In this document: in pieces, positions 54,353-63,874 of the stretch | Layout: each line of letters starts with the position of its first letter | How positions within the stretch are numbered: position 1 is the stretch's first letter | Assembly: GCA_947381945.1 (NCBI GenBank) | Contig: CANCXM010000001.1 | Coordinates: 62,001-126,000, forward strand | Length of the DNA: 64,000 nucleotides | From: an uncultured Muribaculaceae bacterium | Lineage (GTDB): Bacteria > Bacteroidota > Bacteroidia > Bacteroidales > Muribaculaceae | Direction: 5' to 3' | Translations under genes and position numbers: made by a program | The notes under the pieces: generated by a model | Told to the model about the DNA's origin: nothing | The model's database searches: none | The model's input: only the letters and a program-made list of their open reading frames with translations

Positions 54353-57300
54353 TCATTTGTCTCCCGCAAGGCGTCGGAGGGCTTCAAGATTGCGGTTGCA
54401 GTCCTGTTGCAGTTCGGGGCCGAGGATTCCCGCCTCTTTCGGATCTGTCATCTTAAGGTCGGCATACCGGTCCTCATTGACAGTATATTCGGCAACGGTC
54501 TTTACCGGCTCCGTGTTCGGATAGCGTGGCGATGCTGTCAGGGGCGAAGAGCCGTTAGTCCCGCTGTTGTCAGCCCCGGGGACTGGAGAGTCGATTGTCA
54601 ACGCAGTCTCCCCCTTGGCGTATGCCTCGGGATTGAAGCGGTAGAGAGGCCAGTAGCCGGATTCGACCGCGCGCCGCTGCTCAACGATCGAGTGTCCGAG
54701 TCCCGGTCGGATTCCGTGGTTCAGGCAGGGACAGTAGGCAATCACGATGGCAGGGCCGGGATAGCGTTCGGCCTCCGAGAGCGCGTCGATGGTCTGCTGG
54801 TAATTTGCTCCGAGCGAAACGGAGGCGACATAGACCGAACCGTAGGTCATCATCATGCGTCCGAGTTCCTTTTTGGCCACACGTTTTCCATCGGGTGAAT
54901 ATTTCGCCACAGCGCTTCGTGGTGTTGCCTTGGAGGTCTGTCCTCCGGTGTTGGAGTAACATTCGGTGTCCATCACCAGTATCTTTATCGGTTCGCCCGA
55001 TGCAAGCACATGGTCAAGCCCGGCAAACCCGATGTCGTAGGCCCAACCGTCGCCACCGATGGCCCAAACGCTCTTCTTGCCGAACATGTCGGAGGCTTCG
55101 AGCAGTTCCGAATAGGCAGGATTCACGTCCTTTACCGGTTCGAGCATGGCCTTGAGCTGTTCGCCGGTCGACTGTGAAAGTTCCGGGTCATCCTTTCCCG
55201 AATACCATGCTTCGAGTGCCGATTTCAGATAGGGGAGGGTGTCGGGTGAGTCAATCAACGCCTTCACCTTCTGAGCCACTCTTTGGCGGCGCTGTTCGAA
55301 AGCGACAAGCATTCCGTAGCCATACTCACCGTTATCCTCGAAAAGCGAATTGCCCCACGCCGGACCCTTCCCGCGTGGATTTGTGCAATATGCGTTGGAG
55401 GGGAAATTGGCTCCCCAGATGGAACTGCAACCGGTGGCGTTGGCAATCACGAGGCGTTCGCCGAAAAGCTGGGTGAGGAGTTTGACGTAGGGCGTCTCTC
55501 CGCATCCCGCACATGCTCCCGAGAATTCCAGACAAGGCTGCTGGAGCTGCGAACCGTTGATGCTCTCGCGTGGCAGGAGATTGTCTTTCAGGCTCACGTT
55601 TTCCTGCGCCCATTCGAGCAACGGCACTTCGCGCCCAATCACCTCCTCGAGCGGTGTCATCGTCAGGGCATGTCCCGGACAGATGATGGAGCATGACGAG
55701 CAACCGAGGCAGTCTTCGGGATAATTCTGGATATGGAATTTGTAGCCTTCGATCTGTGGCGCTCCTGTCGCCTCCTTCATGGCAAAGCCTTCGGGAGCTT
55801 TTGCAGCTTCTTCAGGCGAGAGAATAAAAGGACGGATGGCTGCGTGGGGACAGACGAGCGAACATTCCGTACACTCGACGCATTTGTCGGCATCCCATAC
55901 GGGGACCCGTGTGGCTATGCGGCGATGTTCGTAGGCTGTGGTTCCTGGAGGAAGTATGCCTGCAGGATCCAGTGCAGATACCGGGATGAGGTCGCCATGG
56001 CCTTTTATGCATGGTGTGTGGATATTCTTGATGAACGATTCAAGAGTCTTGGTCGCAAAGCGGGGTTCGCGCCGTTTGAGCGTTTCGGGAGTGCTTGTCC
56101 ACCCTTCAGTATTGTCATAGTCAATGGCGACGAGCGCGTCGACGGCCATTGAAATGGCTTTAAGGTTTCTCTCGACCACTTCTCCGCCTTCGTGGATATA
56201 TGTCTTCCGGATTTGCTCTTTAAGCGCACCGAAGCTCTCGTCAAACGGGATAAGTTTGCTGAGATAGAGGAACACTGTCTCCATCGGCATGTTTATCCTC
56301 TCTCCGAGACCGCAGCTCGCGGCGATTCTGTCGGCATCGATATTGTAGAAGCGGAGTTTCTTTTCGGCTATGGTTCTGCGCATCTCAAGAGGAAGTTTTT
56401 CGCACATCTGTCCGGCTGTCCAAGGTGAGTTCAGCACGAAGATTCCACCGGGCTTGATTTTGTCGAGCATGGTGAAACGGTTGACGTAGGAAGTCTTGTG
56501 ACACCCGATGTAGTCCGCACCGTCGATTCCGTAGGCCGATGTGACCGGTGCTTTTCCGATTCGCAGTTGCGAGATGGTGTAGCCGCCCGACTTTTTGGCC
56601 GAGTAGCTGAAATAGGCCTGGGCATAAAATCCTGGAGTGTTGCCGATGATGTCGGCCACTTGCTTTGTGCCTCCGACAGTGCCGTCGTTTCCGATTGCGT
56701 AGAGGATAATCTGGTAGGTATCGGCGGCTACGTTTGTCTCGACCTTTTCAGTCACGTCAATCGAGAGGTGGGTCACATCGTCGTTGATGCCCACGGTGAA
56801 CGGATTCTTTGGCGCAGTCTTTGCCATCTCGTCGAAAATGGCCTTGACCATCGAAGGATCGAATTCCTTGCTCGAAAGACCGTAGCGTCCGCCTATGATG
56901 CGGATATTCTCTTTCCCTGCGGCTCCTGACAGAGCTGTGATTACATCCTGACAGAGCGGTTCATGTTGCGCCCCCGGTTCCTTCGTGCGGTCGAGGACAG
57001 CGATTGTCCTGACACTTTCCGGAAGAGCGGCGCGCAAGGCTTCGACAGGGAAGGGACGGTAAAGGCGGACTTTGACAACGCCTGTCTTGTAGCCCTTTTC
57101 GCGGTTGAGGTAATCGACCGTCTCGCCGACCACATCGGCTGCTGAGCCGATGACAACTATCACGCGGTCTGCATCGGGCGCACCGCTGTAGTCCACGAGA
57201 TGGTATTGCCTTCCGGTCTGTTCCCCGACCTTGTCCATCGCATTCTGCACGATTGTCGGGAAGGCATCGTAGAAACGGTTGGAAGCCTCGCGGTTCTGGA

Positions 57301-57970
57301 AATAGACGTCGGGATTCTGGGCGGAGCCGCGTTGGTCGGGGTGCTCGGGATTCATCGACTTGCGGCGGAATTCATTCACCTTGTCCCAATCGACAAGCGG
57401 ACGCATGTCCTCATAGTCAATCACGTCGATTGTGTCCATTTCCGACGATGTGCGCCATCCGTCGAAGAAATGCAACACAGGGAGCGACCCCTCAATTGCG
57501 GCAAGGTGGGCCACGAGGCCGAGATCCATCGTCTCTTGTACGGATGAGGAAGCAAGCATGGTGAAACCCGTGGCACGGCAGGCCATCACGTCCTGGTGGT
57601 CACCGAAGATGGACAGCGCATGGGTTGCAAGCGAGCGGCAACCGACGTGGAACACCACCGGTAGCAATTCGCCGGAAATCTTATACATGTTCGGAATCAT
57701 GAGCATCAGACCCTGGGATGCGGTGAAGGTTGTGGCGAGTGCTCCTGCTGCGGCTGCGCCGTGGACAGCTCCTGCCGCACCAAGCTCGCTCTCCATCTCG
57801 CGGATTTCAAGCGCCTGTCCCATGAGGTTGCGCCGTCCTTCAAGTCCCCACTTCTGGGCGGTGTCCCCCATTGATGCTATAGGTGTTATCGGGTAGATAG
57901 TGGCCACATCGCTCAGTGCGAAGGCGACATGAGCGGCTGCCGTACATCCGTCAAGAATCAGTTTTTTCAT
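54353..57970 (-). CDS. nifJ: Pyruvate:ferredoxin (flavodoxin) oxidoreductase, single chain
   Basis: Oxidises pyruvate to acetyl-CoA and CO2 with ferredoxin or flavodoxin as acceptor, central to anaerobic metabolism. All domains lie on one 1,205-residue chain: the pyrimidine-binding half (YPITPIASMGDTAQKWG near residue 25), the gamma domain, two [4Fe-4S] sites (CVECTECSLVCPHA and CLGCSSCSIICPGHA, about 690-760), a further cysteine pair (CAGCGETPY) and the thiamine-diphosphate domain (GDGWAYDIGFAGLDH ... TECYSNTGGQ). These features fit true PFOR rather than an oxalate oxidoreductase, which is multi-subunit. It lies 138 bases downstream of the AEC transporter on the same strand. Confidence 0.95.
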   Translation of the reverse strand: MKKLILDGCTAAAHVAFALSDVATIYPITPIASMGDTAQKWGLEGRRNLMGQALEIREMESELGAAGAVHGAAAAGALATTFTASQGLMLMIPNMYKISGELLPVVFHVGCRSLATHALSIFGDHQDVMACRATGFTMLASSSVQETMDLGLVAHLAAIEGSLPVLHFFDGWRTSSEMDTIDVIDYEDMRPLVDWDKVNEFRRKSMNPEHPDQRGSAQNPDVYFQNREASNRFYDAFPTIVQNAMDKVGEQTGRQYHLVDYSGAPDADRVIVVIGSAADVVGETVDYLNREKGYKTGVVKVRLYRPFPVEALRAALPESVRTIAVLDRTKEPGAQHEPLCQDVITALSGAAGKENIRIIGGRYGLSSKEFDPSMVKAIFDEMAKTAPKNPFTVGINDDVTHLSIDVTEKVETNVAADTYQIILYAIGNDGTVGGTKQVADIIGNTPGFYAQAYFSYSAKKSGGYTISQLRIGKAPVTSAYGIDGADYIGCHKTSYVNRFTMLDKIKPGGIFVLNSPWTAGQMCEKLPLEMRRTIAEKKLRFYNIDADRIAASCGLGERINMPMETVFLYLSKLIPFDESFGALKEQIRKTYIHEGGEVVERNLKAISMAVDALVAIDYDNTEGWTSTPETLKRREPRFATKTLESFIKNIHTPCIKGHGDLIPVSALDPAGILPPGTTAYEHRRIATRVPVWDADKCVECTECSLVCPHAAIRPFILSPEEAAKAPEGFAMKEATGAPQIEGYKFHIQNYPEDCLGCSSCSIICPGHALTMTPLEEVIGREVPLLEWAQENVSLKDNLLPRESINGSQLQQPCLEFSGACAGCGETPYVKLLTQLFGERLVIANATGCSSIWGANFPSNAYCTNPRGKGPAWGNSLFEDNGEYGYGMLVAFEQRRQRVAQKVKALIDSPDTLPYLKSALEAWYSGKDDPELSQSTGEQLKAMLEPVKDVNPAYSELLEASDMFGKKSVWAIGGDGWAYDIGFAGLDHVLASGEPIKILVMDTECYSNTGGQTSKATPRSAVAKYSPDGKRVAKKELGRMMMTYGSVYVASVSLGANYQQTIDALSEAERYPGPAIVIAYCPCLNHGIRPGLGHSIVEQRRAVESGYWPLYRFNPEAYAKGETALTIDSPVPGADNSGTNGSSPLTASPRYPNTEPVKTVAEYTVNEDRYADLKMTDPKEAGILGPELQQDCNRNLEALRRLAGDK

Positions 57971-58108
57971 TTCCGTCAGGTTTGAAAAGGGATGGTGTTA
58001 CGGGTAGTATAAATAGTGGACATAAGGGAGAGTCAGTCCCTTATGCCCCTGAGATTGTTACGGTTCAGATGGAGTCAATCCCATTTGACCATTGTTTCAT
58101 ATTGTGCC

Positions 58109-59080
58109 TTAGAGAGCTGCGGAGTGGACACAGAGGTCGGTAATCCACAACCAGAGAGGACAGAAACCGATGAATAGTATCACTGAAAGTGTGAGTGACG
58201 AGGTTCCTTCAGCAACATAAGTGTCGTATTCGTCCGCGATGATGATACCGGAGAATGCAGGAGGAAGGGCACCGGCCACAACAAGCATCTTGAGGTTGAG
58301 CGGATCCATGTGGAAGATGAGGCCGAGGATAAGAAGCACGGCAGGCATCATGACCATCTTCAGGATTGCACCGAGAATGACCTGCCAGTCAATGGAAATC
58401 TTGATGGCCGAGAGGGTGATACCGGCTGAGAATACGGCCATTGATGCGTTGGCACCTTTGATAAGGTCGAACGACGGGCTTGCCCATTCAGGCCAGGGTA
58501 TACCGACGACTACCCAGATGACAGCGAGGATAGGGGCCCATGCGACAGGCTGTTCGAGAGCGTGAATCACAGGAGCCCATGCACTTTTGTTTTTTGATGA
58601 ACCGGGATTCTGTTTTTCCAGTGATGCGTTGAGCAGGGAAAGGCCGACCGGGATACCGACGGCATTCACGACAATGCCCACGATGGCAACCACGAGAGCT
58701 ACGGATGGAGTTGTGCCGAAGATAGGTTCAAGCACCGCGAAACCGAGGAATCCGATTGTCGGCGAACCGCTGATAAGAGCTGAGATCGCAGCATCGGCTC
58801 CGGTGTTTTTCTTAAACATCAGGAAGACAAAGTAGACTATCATGAAGCAGGCCATGATGCCGACAAGCGATATAAGTGACAGTTTTATATCTCTTGCAAG
58901 CATTTCGCGGCTCGCTTGGACGATGGACACGAAAAGGGCAGCCGGCAAGGCGTAGTCAAGCACGACCTTATTGAACTTCTTGGCGTCTTCGCCAGAGAAG
59001 ATACCCTTTTTTCCCGAAATATAACCGGCCAGCATCACGACGATGATCGGGACGATGGCGAAAAGGATAATATGTTCCAT
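58109..59080 (-). CDS. AEC-family transporter, probably for oxalate or a related dicarboxylate
   Basis: A 323-residue auxin-efflux-carrier superfamily permease with about ten helices in two inverted halves. Typical AEC segments are SGKKGIFSGEDAKKFNKVVLDYALPAALF near the N-terminus (read in parts) and GALPPAFSGIIIADEYDT in the second half. Related proteins carry malonate, malate or similar acids. Its place immediately after oxc suggests oxalate or formate transport, which is inferred from context. The MFS antiporter OxlT known from Oxalobacter is absent. A hairpin (59120-59152) lies in the 101-base gap after oxc. Confidence 0.8.
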   Translation of the reverse strand: MEHIILFAIVPIIVVMLAGYISGKKGIFSGEDAKKFNKVVLDYALPAALFVSIVQASREMLARDIKLSLISLVGIMACFMIVYFVFLMFKKNTGADAAISALISGSPTIGFLGFAVLEPIFGTTPSVALVVAIVGIVVNAVGIPVGLSLLNASLEKQNPGSSKNKSAWAPVIHALEQPVAWAPILAVIWVVVGIPWPEWASPSFDLIKGANASMAVFSAGITLSAIKISIDWQVILGAILKMVMMPAVLLILGLIFHMDPLNLKMLVVAGALPPAFSGIIIADEYDTYVAEGTSSLTLSVILFIGFCPLWLWITDLCVHSAAL

Positions 59081-59119
59081 AAATTAGTTGATTGAGATTT
59101 GACTTGGAAGTTGAAAGAT

Positions 59120-59152
59120 GGGCGCGGAAGTGTGGTGACGCTTCTCGCGCCC
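59120..59152 (-). other. Hairpin between oxc and the AEC transporter gene
   Basis: G+C-rich arms 59120-59130 and 59141-59152 pair over 11 bases with one bulge and a 10-base loop. The run that follows on the minus strand (ATCTTTC) is only weakly T-rich, so it may be a partial terminator or a processing or stabilising element. Confidence 0.5.
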
Positions 59153-59181
59153 GTGTGAGTTTCGGATTTCGGGAAATTGCC

Positions 59182-60939
59182 TTATACGGTGATGTCCTGA
59201 AGCGGTGCGGGGTTGAGGTAGCCGATGTGGCCTGATTCCTTGCCCGAGTCGGCTGCAAGCTGGACATCAATCAGACATGGTTTCTTGCTTGCGATGCTCT
59301 CGGTGAGGGCTTTGGCGAGTTCGTCGGGTGTCTGGACGTAGTAGGTCTGTGCGCCGAATGCGTCGCCGAGTTTGTCGTAGCGCGCGTGGATGTCGAGAGT
59401 GGTAGGAGCTGGATCGGTAGTCTTGTCGAGAGGCACACCGACACCGTTGTAGATACCGCCGTTGTTGAAGATGACCACGGTCACAGGGAGGTTGAAACGG
59501 CAGATAGTCGAGAAATCCATTCCTGAGAAGCCGAAGGCAGAGTCACCCTCGATTGCAACGACCTGCTTGCCTGTGGCGACGGCTGCACCGATTGTCGAAC
59601 CCATGCCCATGCCCATGATGGCCCATGTCGCACAGTCGACACGATGACGCGGGAGCGACATGTTGACGGCATCACGGGTGTCGTCGAGCGTATTGGCTCC
59701 TTCGTTGATGAGGATGATGTCGGGGTTTGATTCGATGATGGGTTTGATGACACCGAGTGCGGTCCAGTGGTGCATCGGCATCAGGCTCTTGGTCTCTTCA
59801 AGACGGGCTGCGAATTTCGCATTCTTTGTCTTTGCTTCGGCCTGCAGACCGGAAACCCATGCCGGGTCCGCGCTCATCTTCTTGCCTTCCATCTTTGCGA
59901 GGATGGCATCGAGCGAGAGGCCCATGTCGCCAACCACAGGAGCTGCGATCGGGACATTTACGTCCATTTCATCAGGAGCAACGTCGAGCTGGATGAATTT
60001 CATGTCTGGATTCCATTTTCCGCGTCCGAAGCTGAGCATCCAGTTGAGACGGGCACCGATGACCATGACGACATCGGCCTTCTCCATGATGGTCGAGCGG
60101 CATGAGAGCGCGCTGAGAGGGCCGGCATCGGGCATCAGACCCTTGGCCATTGACATGGGGAGATAGGGGATGTTGTATTTTTCAATGAGAGTCTTAATCT
60201 TGTCATCAACCTGGGCGTAGGCCGCACCCTTTCCGAGAAGGATTGCCGGACGCTTGGCCGAGGTGAGGATTTCGACGGCGCGGTCGACGGAAGCCTCGTT
60301 AGGAGCGACGGGTGAGTAGACGTCAACGGGCTGATAGAGGAGCTTTTCGGCCTCCTCGCGGTCCATGATTTCACCGAGTGCAGGGGTTGTCATGTCGATA
60401 TAGACACCGCCCGGGCGGCCTGAGACTGCCACACGGTAGGCGCGTGCGACTGCCGCAGGAATGTCCTTGGCATGGCTGCAGCGGAAAGCGGCTTTGACGA
60501 GAGGTTTGGCTGTGTTGAACTGGTCAAGCTGCTCGTAGGTGCCGACGTTCATGTCGACCATCGTCGGGTCGCTTGCGCCGGAAATCTGAATCATAGGATA
60601 GCAGTTGACGGTGGCGTTGGCGGTCGCTGTCAGTCCGTTCATGAATCCGAGCGAGGAAACGGTCATCAGCACACCGGGTTTCTTCGTGAGGAAGCCTTCG
60701 GTTGCTGCTGCCATGCCTGCCTGCTGTTCGTGGCGGAAGCCGACGAAACGTATGCCCTGACCCTGTATAAGATAGCCGGCTTCGGTGATAGGAATACCGA
60801 CAAGGCCATAGACATTTTCAATACCCATGTTTTTAAGCGCTCTGGCGAGGATATACATACCCGTCACCTGCTCCGGAAAATGGGGCGCCTGTTTCTGAGG
60901 ACATGCACTCTGGGGAGCTGTATTGTTTGTTGTTGCCAT
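59182..60939 (-). CDS. oxc: Oxalyl-CoA decarboxylase
   Basis: Thiamine-diphosphate enzyme that turns oxalyl-CoA into formyl-CoA and CO2. The start at 60939 gives 585 residues beginning MATTNNTAPQ. A longer frame from 61005 would run through the upstream hairpin. The ThDP-activating glutamate lies in VGIPITEAGYLIQ, and the ThDP/metal motif runs from GDSAFGFSGMDFS to NNGGIYNG, the oxalyl-CoA-decarboxylase version. GRPGGVYIDMTTPALGEI also fits. It acts with Frc (frc is 192 bases upstream) in coupled oxalate breakdown. The terminator-like hairpin 36 bases before its ATG may control expression. Confidence 0.95.
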   Translation of the reverse strand: MATTNNTAPQSACPQKQAPHFPEQVTGMYILARALKNMGIENVYGLVGIPITEAGYLIQGQGIRFVGFRHEQQAGMAAATEGFLTKKPGVLMTVSSLGFMNGLTATANATVNCYPMIQISGASDPTMVDMNVGTYEQLDQFNTAKPLVKAAFRCSHAKDIPAAVARAYRVAVSGRPGGVYIDMTTPALGEIMDREEAEKLLYQPVDVYSPVAPNEASVDRAVEILTSAKRPAILLGKGAAYAQVDDKIKTLIEKYNIPYLPMSMAKGLMPDAGPLSALSCRSTIMEKADVVMVIGARLNWMLSFGRGKWNPDMKFIQLDVAPDEMDVNVPIAAPVVGDMGLSLDAILAKMEGKKMSADPAWVSGLQAEAKTKNAKFAARLEETKSLMPMHHWTALGVIKPIIESNPDIILINEGANTLDDTRDAVNMSLPRHRVDCATWAIMGMGMGSTIGAAVATGKQVVAIEGDSAFGFSGMDFSTICRFNLPVTVVIFNNGGIYNGVGVPLDKTTDPAPTTLDIHARYDKLGDAFGAQTYYVQTPDELAKALTESIASKKPCLIDVQLAADSGKESGHIGYLNPAPLQDITV

Positions 60940-60974
60940 AACTGATTTCGAATTGATGATTTCTGTAATAGAAA

Positions 60975-61028
60975 AGAGGGGACAATCAGCAGCTTTGCCT
61001 AACAAGACAATTCCCGATTGTCCCCTCT
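60975..61028 (-). promoter_or_regulatory. Terminator-like hairpin in the frc-oxc gap, possible attenuator
   Basis: Perfect 13-base arms (61028-61016 and 60987-60975 in reading direction) are followed by TTTCTATT on the minus strand, 36 bases before the oxc ATG. Within the 28-base loop, 61011-61006 can pair instead with part of the 5' arm (61022-61017), a six-base alternative stem that would break the terminator. This may be a simple terminator of frc or a leader attenuator of oxc. Confidence 0.55.
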
Positions 61029-61040
61029 GTAAAATTTATC

Positions 61041-61084
61041 TGATGAAAAGATACATTTCAGATGATGAAAAGATGCATTTCAGA
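61041..61084. repeat. Tandem 22-base repeat upstream of oxc
   Basis: Two adjacent copies (61041-61062, 61063-61084) differ at a single base. On the minus strand each contains an xATCTTTTC segment. The copy nearer oxc includes TATCTTTT (61053-61046), close to a -7 box. Two copies in tandem could be regulator binding sites or promoter duplication. Confidence 0.6.
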
Positions 61085-61131
61085 GATTGAATCCGTGAGA
61101 TTTGTATAGTCTATAAGTTCGTTATACAAAC

Positions 61132-62442
61132 TTATTTACCCGGCTCTGCGAGAGGTGCAGTTGTGCCGTTCTTGGCGAACGATGCAATCTGGTCGTCGGT
61201 GTAACCGAGATCTTTGAGGACTGAGCTTGTGTCGCCGCCGAGTGAAGGACAAGGACCGTAGGTCGGCTGATAGTTGCTCATTGTGAACGGGCAACCTACA
61301 GTGACGAACTCACCGATTTCTCCGCCCTGGTTGATTTTGACGAGGGTATTGCCATCGTAGAGTGACTCGTCTGACATCATTTCCTTGGTTGAAAGTACCG
61401 GACCTACGGGCACGCCGTACTTGGAAAGAATTTCAACGACCTCAAATTTGGTCTTGTCGGCAGTCCATTCCCCGATACGCTTGATGATTTCATCCTTATG
61501 CTTGTCGCGGGCATCAGCCGTAGCGAAATCAGGATTGGTAATCCAGTCTTCGAAACCGAGACCCTGACATGCGAGCTTGAACTCCTTCTCTCCGCGCTGG
61601 AGGATAATGTAGACATAGTTGTTGGCATCGACCTCTGAATCCATTCCACCTGCAGGCTTACATTTATATGTCCATCCAAGGACACCACTGCCTTCGGTGT
61701 TGCCTGAACGGGGCACACAATCGCCGAACTTGCCGTTGGGGTACTGCGGGAACTGGGTCAGATAACCGATTCTGTCGAGTGTGAGCTGGTCACGGGTCTT
61801 GATTCGGCAGAGGTTAAGACATGCGTTGTGCATCGACTGGTAGACGAAACATCCTTCGCCGGTGCGCTCACGCTGCTGAAGTGCTGCGAGAAGACCGATG
61901 AGGAGGTGCATACCGGTGTTAGAGTCACCGAGGGCTGCACCGCTCTGGGTAGGAATGTTGTATTCGCCGTCATACCATCCGGTTGTTGATGCGGCGGCGG
62001 CTGTTACCTGTGCGATAGGTTCGTATGCCTTGAGATCCTTATATTTAGAAGAAACAGGGAAACCCTTGATGGTACCATAGATACAGCGAGGGTTGAGTGC
62101 ATGTACTGCTTCCCAGCCGAATCCGAGCTTGTCCATTGCTCCGGGGTGAAGGTTCTCGACGAAAATATCGGCTTCTTTGATAAGTTTGGTGAGAATCTCT
62201 TTTCCGTCTGGGGTCTTTGCATCGAGTGCGAGAGACTTCTTGTCGGAGTTGAGCTGGAGGAAATAATAACTTGGAAGATTGGGGTTGAACTGAAGTTCTT
62301 TACGGGTTGCATCGCCAACGCCGGGACGTTCGATCTTGATGACATCGGCGCCAAGCCATGCAAGCATTTGGGTACATGAAGGACCCGACTGGACTTCTGT
62401 AAAGTCAACTACCTTGATTCCTTGTAAGGGTGCTGTATTCAT
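61132..62442 (-). CDS. frc: Formyl-CoA:oxalate CoA-transferase
   Basis: Family III CoA-transferase (CaiB/BaiF) that passes CoA from formyl-CoA to oxalate, making oxalyl-CoA for Oxc. The 436-residue protein has the N-terminal DFTEVQSGPSCTQML (conserved Gln), IKIERPGVGDATRK, and the catalytic aspartate in LGDSNTGMHLLIGLLAAL. The glycine-rich loop normally written GGGGQP reads EGSGVL here (61695-61678), and an insert follows (PAGGMDSEVDANN), so substrate handling may differ. It is upstream of oxc on the same strand, with a terminator-like hairpin between. No consensus promoter was found before it. Confidence 0.92.
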   Translation of the reverse strand: MNTAPLQGIKVVDFTEVQSGPSCTQMLAWLGADVIKIERPGVGDATRKELQFNPNLPSYYFLQLNSDKKSLALDAKTPDGKEILTKLIKEADIFVENLHPGAMDKLGFGWEAVHALNPRCIYGTIKGFPVSSKYKDLKAYEPIAQVTAAAASTTGWYDGEYNIPTQSGAALGDSNTGMHLLIGLLAALQQRERTGEGCFVYQSMHNACLNLCRIKTRDQLTLDRIGYLTQFPQYPNGKFGDCVPRSGNTEGSGVLGWTYKCKPAGGMDSEVDANNYVYIILQRGEKEFKLACQGLGFEDWITNPDFATADARDKHKDEIIKRIGEWTADKTKFEVVEILSKYGVPVGPVLSTKEMMSDESLYDGNTLVKINQGGEIGEFVTVGCPFTMSNYQPTYGPCPSLGGDTSSVLKDLGYTDDQIASFAKNGTTAPLAEPGK

Positions 62443-62705: not shown

Positions 62706-63308
62706 ATGAATAGAATCTGTTTGCAATTGTTTCTGTCATTTTTCAAGATAGGAGCCTTTACATTCGGCGGAGGTTGGGCAATGCTTTCCATCATAGAGAA
62801 AGAGATTGTCGATAAGTTTCATTGGATAGAGCGTGATGAATTCCTTGATTTGCTTGCCGTGGCGCAATCGCTTCCGGGAATCCTTGCTGTAAATGTCGCT
62901 GTGGCTGTCGGCGATAAGCTCCGCGGGCTTCGCGGTTCCATAGCTGCTGCCATCGGGTGTATCCTGCCGTCGTTTCTGATTATCCTCTGCATAGCGATTT
63001 TCCTGACCCCTGACCTGATAAAGAACAATCCGACCTTGTCGGCAATTTTCATGGGAGTGCGTCCGGCCGTCGTCGCCCTGATTGTCGCTCCGGTCATATC
63101 ATCGGCGAAATCGGCGAAAATCGGCTGGAAGACAATGGCTATTCCCATAGGTGTCGCCCTGCTGATATATTCGCGATGGCCGATTGTGTCAAATCCTATA
63201 TTGTATATAGTCTGTGGCGGTTTCTTCGGATGGTTGTGGTTCTCACACCATGTAAGATCGCTGCAGAAGGTTGAAGAGGAAGTGAGAAAGGAGGATGAGA
63301 AGCTATGA
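62706..63308 (+). CDS. Chromate transporter, first half-size subunit
   Basis: A 200-residue membrane protein of the chromate ion transporter (CHR) family, short-chain type. It starts with FFKIGAFTFGGGWAMLSIIEKEIVD, the CHR signature, followed by FLDLLAVAQSLPGILAVNVA and about six helices. Short CHR proteins work as pairs of antiparallel halves. The true substrate in gut bacteria is unknown, and chromate efflux is shown only for some members. It overlaps its partner gene by 4 bases. Confidence 0.88.
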   Translation: MNRICLQLFLSFFKIGAFTFGGGWAMLSIIEKEIVDKFHWIERDEFLDLLAVAQSLPGILAVNVAVAVGDKLRGLRGSIAAAIGCILPSFLIILCIAIFLTPDLIKNNPTLSAIFMGVRPAVVALIVAPVISSAKSAKIGWKTMAIPIGVALLIYSRWPIVSNPILYIVCGGFFGWLWFSHHVRSLQKVEEEVRKEDEKL

Positions 63309-63874
63309 TTTATCTCAGATTGATATGGGCCTATCTTAAAATCGGCCTTTTCGGTTTCGGCGGCGGCTATGCGATGCTTGCCCTCATCGAGCGCGAGATT
63401 GTCGGGCCGGGATGGATTACCGAACAGATGTTTACCGACATTGTAGCGATTTCGCAGATGACACCCGGACCTATCGGTATCAATTCCGCCACATATATAG
63501 GCTATGTCGCTCCTGCGGAGTATTCCGCAGCTTTCGCTTCGCCGATATACGGGATACTCGGTTCGTTGCTCTGCACGTTCGTGGTGTCGTTCCCGTCTTT
63601 CATACTTGTCACCTATACCAGTCATCTCATACGCCGGCACAGGGATAGTGTTGTGGTGAAAGGTATTTTTGCCGGTCTGCGGCCGGTTGTGGTCGGTCTC
63701 ATCGCGTCAGCTGCACTTCTGCTCATGAATGCTGCGAATTTCGGGGAGACTTCATCGCAGGTGCTCACGAGCATTGCCATCTGTGTCGGTGCTTTCATCC
63801 TTGTCTATTGGGTGAAGTGGCATCCGATTCTGATTATCTGCCTCGCAGGGCTTGCAGGATGGATAATTTATTAA
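63305..63874 (+). CDS. Chromate transporter, second half-size subunit
   Basis: A 189-residue paralogue of the preceding gene, translated from an overlapping ATG. It has the same signature, YLKIGLFGFGGGYAMLALIEREIV, then AISQMTPGPIGINSATYIGY, and about six membrane helices. Together the two halves equal one full-length ChrA-type protein. Coupled translation implies a heterodimer. It is followed by short A+T-rich repeats and another gene start. Confidence 0.88.
   Translation: MIYLRLIWAYLKIGLFGFGGGYAMLALIEREIVGPGWITEQMFTDIVAISQMTPGPIGINSATYIGYVAPAEYSAAFASPIYGILGSLLCTFVVSFPSFILVTYTSHLIRRHRDSVVVKGIFAGLRPVVVGLIASAALLLMNAANFGETSSQVLTSIAICVGAFILVYWVKWHPILIICLAGLAGWIIY

Follow-up and report, generated by a model that had tools for sequence, protein, structure and literature searches.

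Most kidney stones consist mainly of oxalate, a pyruvate analogue. The pathway for its breakdown has so far been described as a carrier with two enzymes: formyl-CoA:oxalate CoA-transferase (Frc) transfers the CoA of formyl-CoA to oxalate, which yields oxalyl-CoA and formate, and oxalyl-CoA decarboxylase (Oxc) converts oxalyl-CoA to formyl-CoA and CO2. In E. coli, yfdW, yfdU and yfdV lie together and are followed by yfdE (PMC3720670). For the Muribaculaceae (S24-7), Ormerod (2016; PMC4936053) reports frc and oxc in 19 out of 30 genomes, with an adjoining permease gene in all 19 of these and in none of the genomes that lack the frc/oxc pair; Lagkouvardos (2019; PMC6381624) places Oxc, Frc, K07088 and a formate transporter among the family-specific functions.

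The window analyzed here is a 64,000-nt stretch of DNA from an uncultured Muribaculaceae bacterium. At positions 54353-62442, on the minus strand, a first-pass annotation had recognized a succession of frc, oxc, the gene of an AEC-family permease and the gene of a single-chain pyruvate:ferredoxin oxidoreductase (PFOR, nifJ). This order was confirmed, and all four reading frames are intact (Table 1; the oxc ORF opens at 61005, with an ATG at 60939). The flanking genes are not common to different loci and the conserved unit is the four genes. Judged from sequence, the locus can be read as a four-gene oxalate cassette with a dedicated PFOR isozyme (PFOR2) that most likely still oxidizes pyruvate, a reading to which we give a probability of about 55%.

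Table 1. Features of the oxalate cassette, with their positions in the window.
Feature	Position	Strand	Basis
frc, formyl-CoA:oxalate CoA-transferase, YfdW type	61132..62442	-	TIGR03253 and catalytic Asp
oxc, thiamine-dependent oxalyl-CoA decarboxylase	59182..60939	-	TIGR03254, NF006721 and active-site residues
AEC-family permease, YfdV-like	58109..59080	-	PF03547; nearest NCBIfam model is YfdV
PFOR2, oxalate-module pyruvate:ferredoxin oxidoreductase paralogue	54353..57970	-	TIGR02176, separate clade, linkage and residues
12-bp GC-rich stem-loop in the AEC/PFOR2 gap	58018..58048	-	terminator-like scan

The stem-loop listed in Table 1 may be a terminator, a processing hairpin or a stability hairpin. 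Many relatives also have hairpins in the AEC/PFOR2 gap, with other sequence, and the frc-oxc and oxc-AEC gaps of the window and its relatives carry strong GC-rich hairpins of unrelated sequence. Since similar hairpins occur in all three gaps of the cassette, the idea of a special terminator between AEC and PFOR2 was dropped as not specific. Divergent from frc are two half-size genes of the chromate-transporter family (ChrA/ChrB-like; 62706-63874) whose scores fall below the model cut-offs; two close relatives (loci L186 and L187) have a comparable pair of small genes next to their cassettes.

The Frc protein scored 561.7 bits with TIGR03253 (cut-off 504.2), and its best solved relatives are YfdW (1pqy/1pt5) and the Frc of Oxalobacter formigenes. 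In the alignment with these two enzymes the catalytic Asp (Asp169 of O. formigenes) is kept within LGDSN. The glycine-rich loop is a variant, EGSGVLGW versus GGGGQPGW of O. formigenes, and does not contain the GNxH of YfdE-type enzymes; the genome encodes a single class III CoA-transferase, so it has no YfdE-type enzyme. A Glu occupies the position of Trp48 of O. formigenes, which is Gln in YfdW. Oxc scored 754 bits with TIGR03254 (cut-off 739.4) and 792 bits with NF006721 (cut-off 557). When aligned to 2c31 and 2q27 it keeps Glu56, Tyr120, Glu121, Tyr483 and Ser553, and the position of Arg555 is His, like E. coli YfdU. With curated cut-offs passed and catalytic residues kept in both proteins, the oxalate module proposed in the first-pass annotation is well supported. 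In another genome (G108:C41:7-1263) an Frc-like frame contains four in-frame TAG codons in an otherwise full-length match, for which a pseudogene, contamination or recoding may be considered.

The permease is an AEC protein by Pfam PF03547 (174 bits, cut-off 25.7), and its nearest NCBIfam model is that of YfdV (NF007384), to which it scored 317.7 bits, below the cut-off of 404. Only AEC/Mem_trans models matched the protein, with no sign in these matches of an OxlT-type MFS antiporter. Among 198 family genomes sampled, AEC is present in 119 out of 119 frc-positive genomes, and in 109 of the 119 it lies within 4 kb of frc on the same strand, with room for oxc between the two genes. The AEC permease is the presumed carrier of oxalate, perhaps also of formate, and the co-occurrence (119/119) supports a part in oxalate transport. 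Its place at the position of OxlT had been put forward as a distinctive feature of the locus. We rejected this as a novelty: it is the ordinary arrangement of E. coli yfdWUV and was already reported for the family (Ormerod, 2016, PMC4936053; PMC6381624). In three otherwise intact cassettes the AEC gene has one internal stop or a two-piece match (G196:C29:104349-105326, G086:C22:14925-15869 and G026:C1:129167-130219).

The frc-oxc-AEC part of the locus is thus confirmed and already known, and the PFOR is, as far as the open-access literature goes, a new and widely conserved extra member; nothing relevant was found there on PFOR or nifJ together with oxalate genes. PFOR2 scored 1556.5 bits with TIGR02176, the model of single-chain PFOR (cut-off 911.35). 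The possibility that it is the ordinary PFOR of the cell was rejected for the window's genome, where a second PFOR, 48% identical to PFOR2, lies on another contig and is cut by the contig edge. In the 198 family genomes the PFORs form two sets. One consists of housekeeping enzymes that look universal and share about 47% identity with the window's PFOR2; the other, the oxalate-type set, is 56-100% identical to it and was found in at least 64 of the 198. Frc and/or AEC is present in 62 of the 64 PFOR2 carriers listed, versus oxalate genes in 60 of the 134 genomes without PFOR2 (Fisher p ~1.6e-14, not corrected for relatedness and with PFOR2 taken from the matches listed). Among the same matches, 0 out of 55 genomes from 12 frc-less genera carry a member of the PFOR2 clade, and about half of the frc-positive family genomes have frc-oxc-AEC without PFOR2. 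The comparison of neighborhoods across Muribaculaceae that had been proposed places the PFOR2 clade next to AEC in 40 of at least 64 carrier genomes, on the same strand and at most 335 bp away among the carriers listed; in about a third of these 64, PFOR2 is elsewhere, mostly on other contigs. Two genomes have an oxalate-type PFOR with frc and AEC not found (L176, G157:C2:106874-110218, genome 76% complete; L177, G189:C1:21546-24176, genome 97% complete), and losses or assembly gaps are possible explanations.

The linkage of PFOR2 to oxalate genes is also found outside the family. A true Frc occurs in only two out of 243 genomes sampled from the remaining Bacteroidales families. In both, oxc and AEC separate frc from a PFOR2-type gene about 2.9 kb away, in the same order as here, although their AEC shows only 45-48% identity. 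A PFOR2-type gene is near frc in 27 out of 80 named frc loci; among these 27 are loci of Bacteroidaceae MAGs, Turicimonas (Sutterellaceae), Anaerotardibacter, Adlercreutzia, Enterorhabdus and Kribbibacterium. In longer stretches, Oxc, AEC and PFOR stand in a row in Adlercreutzia, Enterorhabdus, Kribbibacterium and a relative of Turicimonas. The linkage spans three phyla, Bacteroidota, Pseudomonadota and Actinomycetota. The suspected tie between nifJ and the oxalate genes has therefore become the new and well-supported part of the analysis, with a PFOR of the same clade both co-occurring with and adjoining the oxalate genes in three phyla; the four genes are not rarely adjacent in relatives, and further families and phyla show the linkage as well. 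The adjacency is not accidental. Cassettes of frc-oxc-AEC without PFOR2 exist in Phocaeicola barnesiae, ruminant Bacteroidaceae and bifidobacteria, so oxalate breakdown in itself does not require PFOR2. This three-gene form outside Muribaculaceae (loci L202-L223, Bacteroidaceae MAGs, many of them ruminant; L197, P. barnesiae) is not discussed in the available parts of the S24-7 papers (PMC4936053; PMC6381624).

In the PFOR tree, a branch with 100% SH-aLRT separates the oxalate-linked PFORs of all three phyla from the characterized PFORs of Moorella and Desulfovibrio africanus and from the second (housekeeping) PFORs that the Adlercreutzia and Kribbibacterium genomes carry besides the oxalate-linked ones. 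The tree is unrooted, other phyla are thinly sampled in it, and four betaproteobacterial rows with very long branches, probably wrong-frame ORFs, were excluded. The Oxc tree contains three groups that match the PFOR lineages, and the PFOR gene is missing at several places in it. The grouping of Oxc from Sutterellaceae, Eggerthellaceae and bifidobacteria suggests that the module has passed from one phylum to another. PFOR2 is inherited with the oxalate genes and is distinct from the housekeeping PFOR.

Next, the active site was examined in 60 oxalate-type PFOR sequences, using D. africanus numbering and the pyruvate-contact residues of the D. africanus PFOR (PMC5020499). T31, E64, R114, L121, A219, I843 and N996 are kept in nearly all 60 (the exceptions are Ser for T31 in 10 sequences and Val for I843 in three), and so are all 12 FeS cluster cysteines. 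Beside the catalytic residues, Ser33 and Val993, which vary little or not at all among housekeeping PFORs, have given way to I/A/V and C/G, respectively, in 60 out of 60 sequences, and most sequences also have other residues in place of Ala65 and Ala113. In the numbering of the window's own protein, I31, L63, C111 and C1004 are the residues of interest. An extra Cys two residues ahead of a cluster ligand is found in 58 of the 60. The changes at S33, A65, A113 and V993 are candidates for altered or oxalate-tolerant catalysis. As proof of a new specificity the second-shell substitutions were rejected: of 401 positions invariant in other PFORs the PFOR2 clade has lost 33, and four of the lost positions are near catalytic residues where 2.7 are expected (P = 0.16-0.28), which is not significant beyond general divergence.

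This lack of excess change around the catalytic residues, together with substrate and cluster residues that match those of ordinary PFORs and the case of Turicimonas, in which no other PFOR was found, would agree with PFOR2 being an ordinary PFOR with no special oxalate property, carried by the cassette to supply acetyl-CoA, CO2 or reduced ferredoxin or simply hitch-hiking. We regard this as rather unlikely, for PFOR2 is co-inherited in three phyla while the flanking genes vary, Bacteroidales and Eggerthellaceae retain it in addition to a universal housekeeping PFOR, and such long persistence is unexpected for a hitch-hiking gene. It is very unlikely that PFOR2 is a single-chain oxalate oxidoreductase (OOR) converting oxalate to two CO2 with reduction of ferredoxin. 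The OOR motif YPIRP (Arg31) is absent, with YPI(T/S)P in its place in 60 out of 60 PFOR2-type sequences, the OOR alpha model gives only 87 bits against a cut-off of 500, and the activity would make Frc and Oxc redundant. PFOR2 does share a superfamily with the Moorella OOR and is located among oxalate genes, and its sites 33, 65, 113 and 993 depart from housekeeping PFORs as they do in OOR, but the four-subunit pyruvate PFORs likewise differ at these four sites.

A further alternative is that PFOR2 acts on glyoxylate, forming formyl-CoA, CO2 and reduced ferredoxin from glyoxylate and CoA and thereby priming the oxalate cycle. Frc requires formyl-CoA as its CoA donor, and the reaction would also draw off an oxalate-related metabolite. 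The linkage with Oxc and AEC across phyla is consistent with such a role; the narrow pocket, with its residues kept, would admit glyoxylate; and with one class III CoA-transferase the genome has no YfdE-type primer. Acetyl-CoA is reportedly not used by Frc-type enzymes (PMC3720670), a report that also led us to disfavor direct priming of Frc by PFOR-derived acetyl-CoA. Nevertheless, we consider action on glyoxylate unlikely, given that all known pyruvate-contact residues are kept and none is glyoxylate-specific, that Frc/Oxc cassettes without PFOR2 must have other priming, and that no such activity was found in the literature searched. The broader proposal that the cassette PFOR uses glyoxylate (or oxalate) in place of pyruvate, yielding formyl-CoA and/or low-potential reduced ferredoxin, is doubtful. 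If true, it would mean that gut anaerobes couple the degradation of oxalate to ferredoxin and that the Frc/Oxc cycle has a new entry reaction in three phyla.

For a four-gene cassette with a pyruvate-oxidizing PFOR2, which is the reading we prefer, the following scheme can be proposed. Oxalate probably enters through the AEC permease, and Frc and Oxc, acting in succession by the established functions of their families, convert it to formate and CO2. Formate is probably exported, through AEC or a formate-transporter family protein, because the genome encodes such a transporter and no molybdopterin oxidoreductase domain (PF00384) was found in the 99.4%-complete assembly; for the molybdopterin family, the absence of a formate dehydrogenase, first noted for the window, holds genome-wide. 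PFOR2 would convert pyruvate to acetyl-CoA, CO2 and reduced ferredoxin. While the genomes show the linkage itself, the substrate of PFOR2 and the reason for the linkage are what we infer here, and we tentatively suggest, as the likeliest reason, that PFOR2 keeps pyruvate oxidation running, or is separately regulated, when cytosolic oxalate is high. No report of PFOR inhibition by oxalate was found in the literature searched. As a counterpoint, no PFOR other than the oxalate-type one was found in Turicimonas or in the genome of locus L218, and a general pyruvate enzyme would account for this as well.

These results suggest a partner enzyme of oxalate breakdown that has not been described before. 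A fourth enzyme, co-inherited with the pathway in Bacteroidota, Pseudomonadota and Actinomycetota but lacking in E. coli yfdWUV and in bifidobacteria, would alter the view of how oxalate use connects to anaerobic energy metabolism, as well as the genome-based prediction of oxalate degraders. Why an oxalate degrader would need its own PFOR becomes a directly testable question.

Compared with the described oxalate genes of Muribaculaceae (S24-7), the window adds one more member with frc, oxc and an adjoining permease. The PFOR neighbor is not mentioned, and the word "ferredoxin" does not occur, in the available text of Ormerod (2016; PMC4936053). The cassette resembles E. coli yfdXWUVE in its Frc-Oxc-AEC order, in having YfdW and YfdU as the nearest relatives of Frc and Oxc among solved structures, and in the YfdV model being nearest to its AEC protein. 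Unlike the E. coli genes it has no YfdX and no YfdE (acetyl-CoA:oxalate CoA-transferase), and the PFOR comes next instead. With Oxalobacter formigenes it shares the Frc and Oxc chemistry, whereas the carrier there is the MFS antiporter OxlT and here it is an AEC protein, with a PFOR attached. The Moorella oxalate oxidoreductase (5c4i) belongs to the same OFOR superfamily and has an oxalate context as well, but it is multi-subunit and has the YPIRP that PFOR2 does not have. The single-chain PFORs of D. africanus and Moorella thermoacetica (1b0p, 6cin) are about 57-59% identical to PFOR2 over the compared columns and have identical substrate and cluster residues; PFOR2 differs from them in belonging to a separate, oxalate-tied clade in which S33, A65, A113 and V993 are replaced.
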